From: Catenovulum agarivorans DS-2
GTDB taxonomy: Bacteria > Pseudomonadota > Gammaproteobacteria > Enterobacterales > Alteromonadaceae
Direction of reading: 5' to 3'
NCBI RefSeq assembly: GCF_000568405.1
Contig: NZ_ARZY01000001.1
Span: 62,001 to 126,000, forward strand
Length of the DNA stretch: 64,000 bases
Every line of letters starts with the position of its first letter. Within the stretch, counting starts at the first letter, position 1. Below, piece after piece: positions 53,132-57,943 of this stretch. The position numbers and the translations under genes are program-made. The notes below the pieces were generated by a model. The model saw only the letters and a list, made by a program, of their open reading frames with translations. It made no database searches and was not told where the DNA came from.

Positions 53132-53203
53132 TTAAGGCTATTAAAAAGTTGGTTGGCTTTTTGCTTTAGTGTGTTTGATTAAATAATTTGTTCGGCATTG
53201 CAG

Positions 53204-53250
53204 CCCGCTATTGACTGATGTGTAAGCGTCAGTCAATAGCGGGTTTTTTT
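53204..53250 (+). terminator. Strong terminator / attenuator before the redox operon
   Basis: CCCGCTATTGACTGA (53204-53218) pairs perfectly over 15 bp with TCAGTCAATAGCGGG (53229-53243), loop of 10, followed by seven T (53244-53250). The next gene begins 41 bases later and ompA already has its own terminator, so the hairpin may end a small leader RNA or regulate read-through. Confidence 0.8.
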
Positions 53251-53291: not shown

Positions 53292-55226
53292 ATGAGTGAA
53301 CCTATAATTGTAATTGGCACAGGACCTGTTGGCTTAAGATTTGTCGCTGAATTGCGCAAGCACCAGCCTTCTGTCGAAATTAAGTTATTTGGTAATGAAC
53401 CATGGACGCCATACAACAGAGTTAAGTTGTCTTCATTGCTGGCTAAGGATGCAAATTGGGATGAATTGAAGAGCATTGAATGGCAAAAAATCACTCAAGA
53501 TAAAAACGTTCGCACTTATCTTAATTGCCCAATAGATTTAATTGATCCTGCAAATCAAACTGTATTAGACGCAAATGGCGAGCAGCATAGTTACAGTGAA
53601 TTAATTATGGCTGTAGGCTCTCGTCCCTATATTCCTAACATTTCAGGCCGCCAGTTGTCTGGTGTGTATTCTTTTCGAGATATGAATGATGTGCAAGCTT
53701 TGCTCGCTCGAACCGTTCGAGCTCGCCATGTTTGTGTATTGGGGGGTGGGTTACTTGGCTTGGAAACTGCAAAAGCGCTTCGAAAATTTCACACGCAAAT
53801 CACGGTTGTTCAGCGTGCAGGGCATTTAATGAATAACCAGTTGGATGACGTTGCAGGTTTAATGTTGCAGCAAAGTGTCGAGCAAATGAACATTAATGTT
53901 GAGTGCGGGGAAGGGGTTATTGAGCTTCTCGGCGAACAACGTGTTGAAGCAATTAAACTGCAAGATGGGCGAATTATTGCGTGTGACACTGTGGTATTTG
54001 CCGCGGGCATAGTTCCTAACAAAGAGCTGGCGTTTAAATCAGGCATTCACGTTGGTCGCGCGATTAAAGTCGACCATCACTTAAGGACAAATCAAAAACA
54101 TATTTATGCAATAGGTGAATGTGCTGAATATCAAAATACTACTTATGGCTTGGTCGCGCCTGGCTTTGAGCAAGCTGCGGTATTGGCTGCATTTTTATCT
54201 GGGCAAGCAGCCGCTTATTTAGGAAGCACAACAGCCACCGAATTAAAAGTGGTAGGTGAACAAGTATTTTCAATCGGGGAAGTGGAAAAACCGCGCCGCC
54301 CTAGAGCTGACGAGTGGGTTTTCCAACAAGGCAATCTATATCGAAAAGTAATTATTGAAAGTGGCAAAATTATTGGTGCTCAGGCGATAGGTGCATGGTC
54401 GGAAGCTCGAAGGGTGCAGGAACATGTGGTCGCAGGTCGATCAATATGGCCTTGGCATTTATGGAAGTTTCGACAATCTGGTGAATTATTCAGTGATGCT
54501 GATTCAGGTGTGCTTGATTGGCCAAATGAAGCATTAGTTTGCCAATGTATGGCAGTGCCTAAGTCAACCATTGTCAATTGTGTAAATGCTCGAACAAGTT
54601 GCACGCAAGCTCAGGTAATTTCCGAAACGGGCGCAGGTACGGTTTGTGGCTCATGTAAACCACTTATTGCTGAGCTTTGTGGTAGTCAAACTACCCAAGC
54701 CTCTGAATATTGGCAAGCTCTGCTAAATACTTCTGTTGTTTCACTTATTTTGTCGTTTTTATTGTTGCTGATGCCAGCTATAGCAGTTGCTGATTCAGTG
54801 CAAACCTTTTCGTTTGAGGTCTTGTGGACTGACCCTCTTTACAAACAAATTTCTGGTTTCACCTTGCTGGCTTTGTCTATTTTGCTTGCGATTGTATCGC
54901 TGAGAAAGCGGGTAAAACAATTCACTTGGTTAAGTTTTCCAACTTGGCGGGTTGTTCATTCATCACTGGCAATTGTTGCCTTGTTTGCGTTGTTACTGCA
55001 TAGCGGATTGAGCTTTGGGGTTAACTTAAATCAAGCATTGATGATTAGTTTTGTTGCGACGGCCATTTTGGGCATTGTGTTGGCAAGTGTTATTTCATTG
55101 GAGCACAAGTTATCAATCTCGCAAGCAAAAATGCTGAGGAAGGCGAGCTTGTGGGGGCATATTCTTGCGGTGTGGCCGCTGCCAGTGTTGTTAAGTTTTC
55201 ATATTGTCTCTGTTTATTATTTTTAG
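53292..55226 (+). CDS. NirB-like FAD/[2Fe-2S] reductase fused to a di-haem b membrane domain
   Basis: A 644-residue fusion. Residues 1-400 form the NAD(P)H:FAD oxidoreductase module of nitrite reductase large subunits (IVIGTGPVG at 5-13, NAD site VLGGGLLGLETAKAL near 150). Residues 410-465 form a BFD-type [2Fe-2S] domain with Cys417, Cys419, Cys452 and Cys455. The sirohaem domains of NirB are missing. Instead about 175 residues hold five membrane helices. Two helices carry paired histidines 14 apart: His556/His570 and His623/His637, the pattern of two stacked b haems. It should move electrons from NAD(P)H across the membrane. ATG 53292 is preferred to an upstream TTG. First gene of a five-gene set. 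Confidence 0.8.
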   Translation: MSEPIIVIGTGPVGLRFVAELRKHQPSVEIKLFGNEPWTPYNRVKLSSLLAKDANWDELKSIEWQKITQDKNVRTYLNCPIDLIDPANQTVLDANGEQHSYSELIMAVGSRPYIPNISGRQLSGVYSFRDMNDVQALLARTVRARHVCVLGGGLLGLETAKALRKFHTQITVVQRAGHLMNNQLDDVAGLMLQQSVEQMNINVECGEGVIELLGEQRVEAIKLQDGRIIACDTVVFAAGIVPNKELAFKSGIHVGRAIKVDHHLRTNQKHIYAIGECAEYQNTTYGLVAPGFEQAAVLAAFLSGQAAAYLGSTTATELKVVGEQVFSIGEVEKPRRPRADEWVFQQGNLYRKVIIESGKIIGAQAIGAWSEARRVQEHVVAGRSIWPWHLWKFRQSGELFSDADSGVLDWPNEALVCQCMAVPKSTIVNCVNARTSCTQAQVISETGAGTVCGSCKPLIAELCGSQTTQASEYWQALLNTSVVSLILSFLLLLMPAIAVADSVQTFSFEVLWTDPLYKQISGFTLLALSILLAIVSLRKRVKQFTWLSFPTWRVVHSSLAIVALFALLLHSGLSFGVNLNQALMISFVATAILGIVLASVISLEHKLSISQAKMLRKASLWGHILAVWPLPVLLSFHIVSVYYF

Positions 55227-55238
55227 TGGGTAAGTATT

Positions 55239-56555
55239 TTGAAGACGATTTCTTGGATAATTTGGATTGTTTCTAGTTTAGCGTTAGCAGCGTACTTGCT
55301 GTTTGAACTTGTCTGGTCGCAAGATAAGTCGAGCTTTCTGATTGGCGAAGCAACCCATGGACATCATCAAATTGAATTAGCTTGTGCCACTTGTCACACG
55401 TCGCCATTTGGTGGTGGTGAAGTAATTCAAGATGCTTGTGTTGGATGTCACGGACAAGAACTGGCTAGCGCTGAAGACTCCCACCCAAAAGCTAAATTTA
55501 CAGATCCCCGAAATGCTGACCGTCTGGCCGTGCTAGATGCAACAGAATGTGTAACTTGCCACTTAGAGCACCAAAATGAACAAACGCGTGCGATGGGGGT
55601 GACCTTAGCGGACGATTTTTGCTGGCATTGCCATCAAGACGTTGCTGCTGAGCGTCCCAGCCATGAAGGTATGGAGTTTGATACTTGTGCAAGTGCCGGC
55701 TGCCACAATTATCACGACAATAAAGCCTTGTATGAAAACTTTTTAGTCAAACATGCTAACGAAGCGGACGTGTTTATGTCGGCAAAACGACCGTTACGCG
55801 AAGCGGTTACACAATATTTAGCGAATAATCCAAACACTAAAGCATTAACAGTAGCGGATATTGAGCTTGTTGAACAGGCCCCTGGCGAGGTCTATCAGCA
55901 TTGGCAAGCCAGCACGCACGCAACTGTTGGCATCGCATGCAACGATTGTCATCAATCTGCCGACGGAATATGGCAGCAACAACCTAAAATTCAACTATGT
56001 CAAAACTGCCACCAACAAGAGTGGGAGAATTTTACCCAGAGTCATCATGGTATGCGTTTGTCAGATAAATTAACCCAAACGCTTTCGCCAATGACGCCAG
56101 CCCAGGGACGGTTAGCATTTCAACCCTCTAGCTTAGCTGCAGAGATGACCTGTTCTACTTGCCATGGTCCACATGAATTGAATGTTGAAAAAGCGGCCAG
56201 TGAATCGTGTTTAAGTTGTCATGCTGACGAACATAGTTTGGCTTTTGAGCAAAGTCCACATGGGCAGCTTTGGCAACAGGAGCTGGCAGGCGAAATAAAT
56301 AAAGGTGAAGGCGTTAGTTGTGCGACATGCCACATGCCAGTTGTAGAGCAGGGTAAACAACATCAAGTTATGCATAACGTAAATCATAACCTACGTCCAA
56401 ACGAAAAAATGCTCCGCACTGTGTGTATGAATTGCCATGGTTTAGCTTTTTCAATTGATGCACTAGCAGATAAAGATTTGATTAAAAATAACTTTTTACA
56501 CGCACCATCTGTGCATATTGAAAGCATAGATATGGCGTTAGAAAGACTGAAATAA
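55239..56555 (+). CDS. Membrane-anchored 11-haem cytochrome c
   Basis: A 438-residue protein starting with TTG at 55239. An N-terminal hydrophobic helix (about 5-25) anchors or exports it. Haem-binding motifs in order are CATCH, CVGCH, CVTCH, CWHCH, a longer CASAGCH (CX4CH), CNDCH, CQNCH, CSTCH, CLSCH, CATCH and CMNCH: ten CXXCH and one CX4CH. Extra His residues are plentiful for axial ligation. It is 12 bases after the flavoprotein gene. It probably accepts electrons from the di-haem b domain in the periplasm. The family is the broad cytochrome c3/multihaem class; the terminal substrate is unknown. Confidence 0.85.
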   Translation: MKTISWIIWIVSSLALAAYLLFELVWSQDKSSFLIGEATHGHHQIELACATCHTSPFGGGEVIQDACVGCHGQELASAEDSHPKAKFTDPRNADRLAVLDATECVTCHLEHQNEQTRAMGVTLADDFCWHCHQDVAAERPSHEGMEFDTCASAGCHNYHDNKALYENFLVKHANEADVFMSAKRPLREAVTQYLANNPNTKALTVADIELVEQAPGEVYQHWQASTHATVGIACNDCHQSADGIWQQQPKIQLCQNCHQQEWENFTQSHHGMRLSDKLTQTLSPMTPAQGRLAFQPSSLAAEMTCSTCHGPHELNVEKAASESCLSCHADEHSLAFEQSPHGQLWQQELAGEINKGEGVSCATCHMPVVEQGKQHQVMHNVNHNLRPNEKMLRTVCMNCHGLAFSIDALADKDLIKNNFLHAPSVHIESIDMALERLK

Positions 56556-56582
56556 ATTAACCAAGCCAACGAGGAAACCACT

Positions 56583-57149
56583 ATGAAAAACACCTTAAAA
56601 ATGACCCTAGCTGCATCAAGCATTGCAATTTTAACTGCTTGTGGCGGTGATAAAGAAGCAGGTATTTCACCACAACAATTTACTGATGCATTGCACTTAG
56701 TTATGGATTCAGACCGAGCTGTTTATACCAAAAAGGTTGTCGGTCGATTAACTAAGGAAGAAAAAGTGATTAAAGCTTCAGAGCACTTTATGGATGATAA
56801 AGCGCTGCCATTGCCAGCACAGATGTTCCGTTTTGGCGCTGAAACAGTTGCAGAAAAGACAGATGAATTTACTTATTCATTGCAGTCTCTTTGGCCAATA
56901 AATAGCCAGAATGCGCCCGTTACAGCGGTTGAGAAGGAAGGCTTACAGTTTATAGTGGATAACCCAGGCAAGAATTTTTATAAGGAAGAAACGCTTGGTG
57001 GTAAAAACTATTTTACTGCTATTTATCCGGATGTAGCGGTCGCACCAGTTTGTGCTTCATGTCATAACGATCACAAAGATTCACCAAAAACAGACTTTAA
57101 GGTTGGTGATGTAATGGGTGGTGTGGTTATTCGCGTCCCACTGGGTTAA
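56583..57149 (+). CDS. DUF3365 haem-binding lipoprotein
   Basis: A 188-residue lipoprotein (lipobox LTACG) with one haem-c motif, CASCHND, near residue 159. The order of features, with SLWPINSQNAPVT near 100 and GGKNYFTAIYPDVAVAPVCASCH, matches DUF3365 (Tll0287-like). Some relatives serve as haem-based sensors or electron carriers. It follows the 11-haem gene by 27 bases behind a GAGGAA ribosome site. Confidence 0.85.
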   Translation: MKNTLKMTLAASSIAILTACGGDKEAGISPQQFTDALHLVMDSDRAVYTKKVVGRLTKEEKVIKASEHFMDDKALPLPAQMFRFGAETVAEKTDEFTYSLQSLWPINSQNAPVTAVEKEGLQFIVDNPGKNFYKEETLGGKNYFTAIYPDVAVAPVCASCHNDHKDSPKTDFKVGDVMGGVVIRVPLG

Positions 57150-57189
57150 GTATTTCAAGCTCACTTTTGCTGAGTATAGGAGTAAGTAT

Positions 57190-57525
57190 ATGAAAATAAG
57201 TGCTTATCCATCTATTGCTGTGGTTGCCATATTGTTATCCGCTTGCTCTGAATCTCCTGAGCAAGTTGCATTGGAACAAGGCAAAGCAATTTGGGAAGGT
57301 ACCTGTGCTGTTTGCCATGCACAGGGGTTGGCTGGCTCACCACCTATTGGTAACAAAAAAATGTGGGCCAAGCGAATTGAAAAAGGATTACCTGTTTTAT
57401 TTGAGCATGCCAAGAATGGATTTTCAGGAGAAACAGGTTTAATGCCACCACGTGGTGGAAATGAAGATTTGACCGACCACCAAGTTGAATTGGCCGTTAA
57501 ATACATGGTGAGTCAAAGCCAATGA
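57190..57525 (+). CDS. c5-type cytochrome lipoprotein
   Basis: From ATG 57190, behind AGGAG, the protein is 111 residues with a lipobox LLSAC. One haem site CAVCHAQG near residue 38 and the methionine ligand in GLMPPRGGNEDLT near 88 match cytochrome c5 and related monohaem cytochromes. It is probably anchored in the envelope and hands electrons to or from a terminal enzyme. Its stop overlaps the globin ribosome site. Confidence 0.88.
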   Translation: MKISAYPSIAVVAILLSACSESPEQVALEQGKAIWEGTCAVCHAQGLAGSPPIGNKKMWAKRIEKGLPVLFEHAKNGFSGETGLMPPRGGNEDLTDHQVELAVKYMVSQSQ

Positions 57526-57535
57526 GGAAAAAACT

Positions 57536-57943
57536 ATGAATGATAGATCAATAGAGTTAGTACAAAATACGTTTGCCCAAGTCGCGCCAATTGCGGATAA
57601 AGCCGCTGCGCTGTTTTACGCGCGCTTATTTGAAATTGCTCCAGAGGTCCGACCGTTATTTAAAGCGGATTTAACCGAGCAAGGTGCTAAGTTGATGCAA
57701 ATGATTGGGACAGCGGTCGCAAGTTTAACAAATTTAGACGCATTAGTGCCTGTAGCGCAAGATTTGGCCAAACGTCACATTGATTATGGCGTGAAGAAAG
57801 AGCATTATGCTGTTGTTGGTGCTGCATTGATCTGGACCTTAGAACAAGGTTTGGGGGATGCATTCACTGAAGAAGTCAAACAAGCTTGGGTTGATGTATA
57901 TGGTTTGTTGTCGTCGGTTATGATTGACGCAGCTTACGATTAG
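57536..57943 (+). CDS. Single-domain globin (Vitreoscilla type)
   Basis: A 135-residue globin without reductase or signal peptide, so cytoplasmic. The proximal haem His lies in AKRHIDYGVKKEHYAVVG near residue 81, where the KH...GV...HY pattern matches Vitreoscilla haemoglobin. Helix E reads LTEQGAKLMQMIG. Such globins bind O2 and NO and can aid NO removal when given electrons. It is the last of the five redox genes, 10 bases after the cytochrome. The nearby flavoprotein could supply its reductant, but this is inference. Confidence 0.9.
   Translation: MNDRSIELVQNTFAQVAPIADKAAALFYARLFEIAPEVRPLFKADLTEQGAKLMQMIGTAVASLTNLDALVPVAQDLAKRHIDYGVKKEHYAVVGAALIWTLEQGLGDAFTEEVKQAWVDVYGLLSSVMIDAAYD

Follow-up and report, generated by a model that had tools for sequence, protein, structure and literature searches.

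Bacterial nitrate assimilation is usually described as a cytosolic process (NasA, NirB). The NasS-NasT system is reported to respond to nitrate and nitrite (PMC3795266), and ANTAR proteins are reported to bind two hairpins whose 6-base loops have A as the first and G as the fourth base, and of which the second overlaps a terminator (PMC3369931). In Bradyrhizobium japonicum, a flavoprotein and a globin under NasT control are reported to serve nitrate reduction and protection against nitric oxide (NO) (PMC4724949). Here we describe a five-gene operon in a 64,000-nucleotide stretch of Catenovulum agarivorans DS-2 (contig NZ_ARZY01000001.1, positions 62,001 to 126,000 of the forward strand; hereafter the window). 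Its conserved core is a trio of a flavoprotein-membrane fusion, an 11-haem cytochrome (MHC11) and a DUF3365 lipoprotein; a globin and a small cytochrome c are optional members. Comparison of the sequences makes it fairly probable that the operon exports electrons from NAD(P)H so that nitrite or NO can be reduced in the periplasm as part of nitrate assimilation. The genes lie on the + strand and are separated by 12, 27, 40 and 10 bases:

53292..55226, + strand: gene 1 ('flavoFRD'), 644 amino acids (aa), with Pfam Pyr_redox_2, Rubredoxin_C and Fer2_BFD and a C-terminal haem-b-type domain of five transmembrane (TM) segments
54687..55223, + strand: TM domain of gene 1, residues 466-644
55239..56555, + strand: gene 2, MHC11, 438 aa, an 11-haem cytochrome c with a hydrophobic anchor at its N-terminus
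56583..57149, + strand: gene 3, a mono-haem c lipoprotein of family PF11845 (DUF3365/Tll0287-like), with one CXXCH and the lipobox LTAC
57190..57525, + strand: gene 4, a mono-haem lipoprotein with Pfam cytochrome c matches and the lipobox LSAC; optional member
57536..57943, + strand: gene 5, a single-domain Pfam Globin without a reductase; optional member

An earlier, sequence-only reading of the window had noted five genes on one strand with gaps of 10-40 bases, and re-reading together with domain scans recovered them at the same coordinates. The features listed for them were found as well: flavin adenine dinucleotide (FAD)/NAD(P)H and [2Fe-2S] motifs in gene 1, two HX13H helices (H556/H570 and H623/H637), 11 haem-c motifs in gene 2 (10 CXXCH and one CX4CH), and two further haem-c lipoproteins and a globin. 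Gene 3 scored 75 bits on PF11845 against a gathering threshold of 24.1, and the best NCBIfam match of gene 5 was the globin part of flavohaemoprotein.

Conservation of the trio

In a class-wide sample of 369 gammaproteobacterial genomes, MHC11 was found in 27 (E<=1e-20). A profile of the TM domain of gene 1 matched near its full length in all 27 (E<=2.5e-25) and in none of the other 342, of which 16 gave weak partial matches (best 4.3e-9). Fifteen loci came from a scan of named genomes, among them Hahella, Motiliproteus, Filomicrobium, Jannaschia, Rhodobacteraceae and two bins of Lentisphaerales/Lentisphaeraceae. The gene set spans Gammaproteobacteria, Alphaproteobacteria and Lentisphaerales. 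The flavoprotein gene lay beside MHC11 at 24/26 class-sample and 15/15 named loci (partial frames in L072 and L074), and DUF3365 did so at 24/26 and 14/15; these counts exclude L031, L033, L089 and the window, and starts and frames of orthologues were picked automatically. Contig ends cut L087 and L095, L086 is a true exception, and L088 shows MHC11 in part, with a frame that matches query residues 2-155 only and no MHC11 label in the neighbour clustering. A globin of either type was present at 16/26 and 7/15 loci, and the gene 4 cytochrome c at 11/26 and 6/15. The sequence-only reading had treated the five genes as one set; across genomes the fusion, MHC11 and DUF3365 do stay together, adjacent at nearly all loci, and the globin and cytochrome c do not. 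Pairwise distances among the core proteins correlate (Mantel r 0.64, 0.75 and 0.58, with 0/999 permutations as high; 34 loci, L068, L071 and short-frame loci being left out).

Of the named relatives, Catenovulum agarivorans YM01 is closest (83% identity for genes 1 and 2, 97% for gene 3). High-identity gene 1 was found in only two of eight Catenovulum genomes searched, and in an empty-site comparison ompA was not found in the fetched flank beyond dnaB in any of the six other Catenovulum genomes. Another genome of the same family, G437, carries genes 1 to 4 in order, and no globin was found there. Since full-length homologues of gene 1 occur in C. agarivorans (83%) and dozens of other genomes, the fusion is no assembly artefact.

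Several variants of the locus were seen. G218 carries a second copy of the system, in which a second MHC11 stands beside a 416-aa frame (L089:6986-8236) that contains a GPP34 domain and matches part of the TM domain. A divergent set in G036 (L031:3602-7826; 29-57% identity) has no separate FRD match at 1e-4, lies beside a TonB-dependent receptor and shows no Nas-type neighbours in the 15 kb fetched. At L063, L076, L096 and L100 the window-type globin is replaced by a truncated one, which in L076 matches PF01152 and in three of the four adjoins a Fer2-FAD-NAD reductase. At L094 (2682-3947) and four further loci (cluster c10), the gene just upstream resembles a putative glucose-1-phosphate adenylyltransferase.

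In 16 aligned rows of gene 1, the [2Fe-2S] cysteines C417, C419, C452 and C455 and the histidines H556, H570 and H623 are invariant; H637 is conserved in at least 90%, and L098 has Arg at this position. The loops of the TM domain carry 4 and 4 Lys plus Arg on the side of the flavin domain and 0 and 0 on the opposite side, which by the positive-inside rule would set H556 and H623 towards the cytoplasm and H570 and H637 towards the periplasm. The AlphaFold model (mean predicted local distance difference test score, pLDDT, 82.6) has visible membrane helices. Resemblance of the TM domain to Pfam DUF4405 is weak (5/16 members, best 2e-5; the window is below gathering), as is that to Ferric_reduct, so we only infer that gene 1 binds haem b. 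Foldseek was uninformative on this domain, as the 50 of 1605 matches listed were solely pyridine-nucleotide-type flavoproteins. The proposal of the sequence-only reading that electrons cross the membrane inside one polypeptide is supported by the conserved Cys and His residues, the charge distribution of the loops and the restriction of the TM domain to MHC11 genomes among the 369. In one of the 27, G321, the TM domain lies away from MHC11, in a fusion protein (L181:4764-7421) that also has BFD, an FNR-type reductase and a pair of cNMP-binding domains; this suggests that the NAD(P)H modules feeding BFD and the membrane part are swappable.

In MHC11, each of the 11 haem motifs keeps its Cys and His residues in 43/43 aligned rows, in which one genome appears twice (L033 and L097) and no pair is more than 80% identical except among L033, L097 and the window. 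Eleven further His are near-invariant, and H172 is present in 38/43 rows. The middle haems match the DmsE family in part in 16/16 members, the window protein scoring 56 bits against a TIGR03508 cut-off of 192, and the last two resemble NrfA and octahaem nitrite reductase, with window NCBIfam matches below cut-off. The NrfA-like region leaves out the NrfA catalytic haem. We drew no fold claim from the AlphaFold model of MHC11 (mean pLDDT 46). A search of plasmids with MHC11 gave no match at E 1e-30.

DUF3365 is the best conserved of the core proteins, with a mean pairwise identity of 60% versus 47% and 41% for the other two. Tll0287 and a P. putida protein are reported to have an axial Cys ligand, and a Cys-less, signalling-type protein to form an NO complex that dissociates slowly (PMC12889525). 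No Cys beyond residue 30 was found outside CXXCH in the operon copies (0/41), whereas in 12/17 other stand-alone copies, all of this bacterial family, a Cys precedes CXXCH by 73-85 residues. The operon copies are thus without the Tll0287-type ligand, a trait common to signalling copies and to a larger, 249-278-aa group, and we predict an open (labile) haem in them. The DUF3365 profile had no match among PDB sequences.

Leader hairpins and nitrate-type neighbours

A leader terminator with an overlapping hairpin, which the sequence-only reading had not included, precedes gene 1:

53194..53205, + strand: P2-type hairpin, GGC-ATTGCA-GCC, with a 6-base A1/G4 loop, overlapping the 5' arm of the terminator
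53204..53250, + strand: intrinsic leader terminator, dG -34.6, whose T-run begins 48 nucleotides (nt) upstream of gene 1

The same kind of P2 hairpin and terminator was found in C. agarivorans (L097), and a terminator lies 15-150 nt ahead of gene 1 in 26/39 leaders (L033, from the same genome as L097, being left out). An overlapping A1-G4 hairpin was present in 21/26 of these versus 105/1754 control terminators, and both hairpins in 15/26 versus 12/1754, where some of the controls may themselves be genuine nas leaders. With strict terminators (dG<=-18; 20/37 leaders, the near-duplicates L033, L095 and L078 being left out), the corresponding figures were 19/20 versus 25/327 and 14/20 versus 8/327. 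The other 15 loop rules were found in at most 3/20 strict-terminator leaders. At the window leader, all 12 Rfam matches were below gathering. The leader of the nas operon in the window genome has a similar hairpin-terminator arrangement. These patterns argue strongly for ANTAR control of the leader across the family.

Genes of nitrate-assimilation type recur near the operon. The neighbours that turn up in 10 or 11 loci comprise a binding protein of the NMT1_2 family (PF13379), a permease, an ATPase, a NasT-type protein with receiver and ANTAR domains (PF03861 above cut-off) and a porin like Alginate_exp/Opr. Nitrate transporter models are the best NCBIfam matches of the permease (162 bits, cut-off 209) and the ATPase (288 bits, cut-off 292), and we label the neighbours NrtA, NrtB, NrtC and NasT from these best family matches. 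At least one such gene was present in 10/26 class-sample and 6/15 named fetched stretches. Proteins of PF13379, a family that also includes NasS and other binding proteins, were found at E<=1e-30 in 24/27 carriers versus 87/342 other genomes (Fisher p 5.6e-11, a test that ignores phylogeny). Leaders and neighbours strengthen the suggestion of the sequence-only reading that the acceptor may be a nitrogen oxide. The link is to nitrate assimilation, which that reading had not named.

On a different contig the window genome carries a cytosolic nas cluster, and it encodes a single ANTAR protein (201 aa). The cluster includes a PF13379 protein, NrtB-like (171 of 209 bits) and NrtC (358 bits, cut-off 292) proteins, and a 497-aa protein of the NirB-N-half type beside a nitrate-reductase-like molybdoprotein, which reaches no cut-off and matches formate dehydrogenase alpha best and NasC second. 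Two members do exceed their cut-offs, a uroporphyrinogen-III methyltransferase and a transporter of the NarK family; an 853-aa NIR_SIR frame, a putative 111-aa NirD-like frame and a putative porin-like protein are also present.

A porin of the Alginate_exp/Opr-like type lies beside nas-type genes and the operon in 10 loci (cluster c8, e.g. L092:10105-11340), and is a candidate outer-membrane nitrate porin; a porin-like protein at L140:16067-17224 had no NCBIfam match and its likeness is putative. Two loci have a NirB-like gene within a few kb of the operon (L068:2354-4798 and L071:897-3344), the L068 copy passing the TIGR02374 cut-off.

Proposed electron route and its alternatives

In the route that we favour, transcription would be held off by the leader terminator and released by NasT upon nitrate or nitrite. 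In gene 1, NAD(P)H would reduce FAD, from which electrons would move to the BFD [2Fe-2S] cluster and then, with no quinone involved, through the inner membrane by way of two stacked haems b. MHC11 would accept them at the periplasmic face and conduct them along its 11 haems c to the site where nitrite or NO arising from nitrate assimilation would be reduced. The likeliest candidate for this terminal site is the labile haem of DUF3365, the lipoprotein that lacks the Cys; the alternative is a haem of MHC11 itself. Where present, the small cytochrome c may act as a shuttle and the globin may deal with NO inside the cell.

A number of observations weigh against this route. The proposed catalytic site is an unproven candidate: the His count of MHC11 would suffice for bis-His ligation of every haem, and CXXCK is absent from the locus sequences (0/43) and from the window protein. 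Absence of the Cys is no hallmark of the operon, because 5/17 of the other stand-alone DUF3365 copies (larger, 249-278 aa) also lack a Cys at that distance. Stand-alone DUF3365 proteins have been given redox rather than gas-binding roles, and a C59A (Cys-to-Ala) mutant is reported still to release NO fast (PMC12889525), so that a missing Cys alone would not make an NO binder. Thirteen of the 39 leaders have no terminator. In the window and C. agarivorans no P1 hexaloop A1/G4 hairpin was found upstream of P2, and the nas leader loop of the window genome, GATGAA, has G rather than A at position 1; ANTAR control of the window operon is for these reasons likely, not certain. The names NrtA and NrtB rest on NCBIfam matches below cut-off and the representative NrtC is 4 bits short, in 25/41 loci, some of them short contigs, the fetched stretch contains neither an Nrt-like nor an ANTAR gene, and 3/27 carriers have no PF13379 protein. 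Finally, 22/27 carriers have a NirB-length siroheme protein (a NIR_SIR frame of 780 aa or more), so that nitrite reduction is already covered. A general replacement of NirB was rejected on this count; the system would complement NirB rather than replace it.

The retention of NirB is in keeping with an operon devoted to NO or nitrosative-stress defence alone, in which periplasmic DUF3365 and cytochromes and the cytosolic globin would, as with Bjgb-Flp in Bradyrhizobium, scavenge the NO that nitrate assimilation yields as a by-product and supply no nitrogen to the cell. This account overlaps with the favoured route, and we regard it as a serious contender that falls somewhat short of being probable. 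It gains from the globins of either type (16/26 and 7/15 loci), some with a Fer2-FAD-NAD reductase, from the Cys-less DUF3365, and from the NasT-controlled narK-bjgb-flp-nasC genes of B. japonicum, where Bjgb and Flp are reported to protect against NO (PMC4724949). No globin was found, however, in 18/41 loci, though the trio is nearly constant, and an 11-haem wire would suit multi-electron reduction better than simple NO binding. The MHC11/DUF3365 pair might instead make ammonium from nitrite, as a periplasmic assimilatory reductase forming a second arm beside NirB, which again overlaps with our reading. The ANTAR/NasT-type leaders and the likeness of the last two MHC11 haems to NrfA and octahaem nitrite reductase fit this idea, as do the 5/27 carriers without a NirB-length frame, though one of these genomes has a completeness of 72% and three encode a NIR_SIR protein of 561-629 aa, perhaps NirA or CysI. 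In NrfA, CXXCK is the motif of the catalytic haem; MHC11 has neither this motif nor a clear open haem, and its NrfA-like region leaves out the catalytic haem; we consider ammonium formation rather unlikely.

Two further accounts seem less probable. Periplasmic redox balancing, or reduction of metals or thiols, might be only incidentally switched by nitrate, with iron, oxygen or another compound as acceptor. The DmsE-like middle haems, below cut-off, and the weak ferric-reductase likeness of the TM domain point this way, but the linkage to nitrate-assimilation-type genes and leaders is specific, and no outer-membrane cytochrome conduit was recognised among neighbours recurring in at least 4 loci (rarer ones being only partly examined); we consider it improbable. 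More improbable still is that the cytosolic half of gene 1 chiefly reduces the globin or NasA, as proposed for Flp (PMC4724949), with the membrane domain a mere anchor. Gene 1 does resemble the N-half of NasC/NirB, and Flp offers a precedent, but four conserved His of the haem-ligand type, the strict co-occurrence of the TM domain with MHC11 and the separate 497-aa protein of NirB-N-half type beside the nitrate-reductase-like gene of the window genome speak against it.

If NAD(P)H-driven export is correct, a NasT-type leader on a transmembrane exporter would put part of nitrate assimilation or NO protection in the periplasm, on an arm that has 13 c-haem motifs at its periplasmic side and draws its power straight from NAD(P)H. 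A more far-reaching form, which we advance only tentatively and think doubtful, is that nitrate assimilation, across a broad range of bacteria including marine ones, has an unrecognised periplasmic arm with a quinone-independent NAD(P)H route. The 11-haem wire of this arm would supply an sCache-haem lipoprotein that lacks the Cys and that would represent a nitrite or NO reductase of a new class. The module occurs in named strains and offers a direct test of the function of Cys-less DUF3365 haem proteins.

Relation to known systems

No description of this gene set was found in the literature searched, in agreement with the sequence-only reading, which had named no system with this exact set. 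Each part is of a known kind; their combination, control and place in nitrate assimilation appear to be new.

The nearest functional parallel is the B. japonicum narK-bjgb-flp-nasC / NasS-NasT system, which shares NasT control, a link to nitrate assimilation, an NAD(P)H flavoprotein, a single-domain globin and NO protection; a membrane haem-b domain, a multihaem cytochrome and DUF3365 are not mentioned in the available portion of its description (PMC4724949). The Tll0287/sCache_heme proteins (PMC12889525) resemble gene 3 in being stand-alone PF11845 proteins with one CXXCH haem c, whereas the operon copies have no axial Cys N-terminal of CXXCH. Likeness of MHC11 to DmsE-type and NrfA/octahaem cytochromes is confined to partial matches over its middle and last haems; unlike these types, it falls below NCBIfam cut-offs, has 11 haems including one on CX4CH and a hydrophobic N-terminal anchor, and is free of CXXCK.

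With the NirB/NasC assimilatory reductases, gene 1 shares FAD/NAD(P)H and BFD domains, Pyr_redox_2 and Fer2_BFD with four Cys being matched as in flavoproteins of this type. It differs from NirB in having no siroheme half (no NIR_SIR match), in matching TIGR02374 over positions 1-471 only and below the cut-off (372 bits versus 578), and in its membrane-embedded C-terminus. In NOX and ferric reductases (FRD), electrons pass from NAD(P)H through FAD to two haems b within one polypeptide, and two His pairs with HX13H spacing in two TM helices hold these haems. Gene 1 is predicted to share this layout and has both pairs, H556/H570 and H623/H637. Its match to Ferric_reduct (PF01794) stays below gathering (window E 0.77; 2/16 members match, best 0.0093), and it differs from NOX/FRD proteins in its Pyr_redox_2 flavodomain, its additional BFD cluster and its 11-haem cytochrome neighbour.

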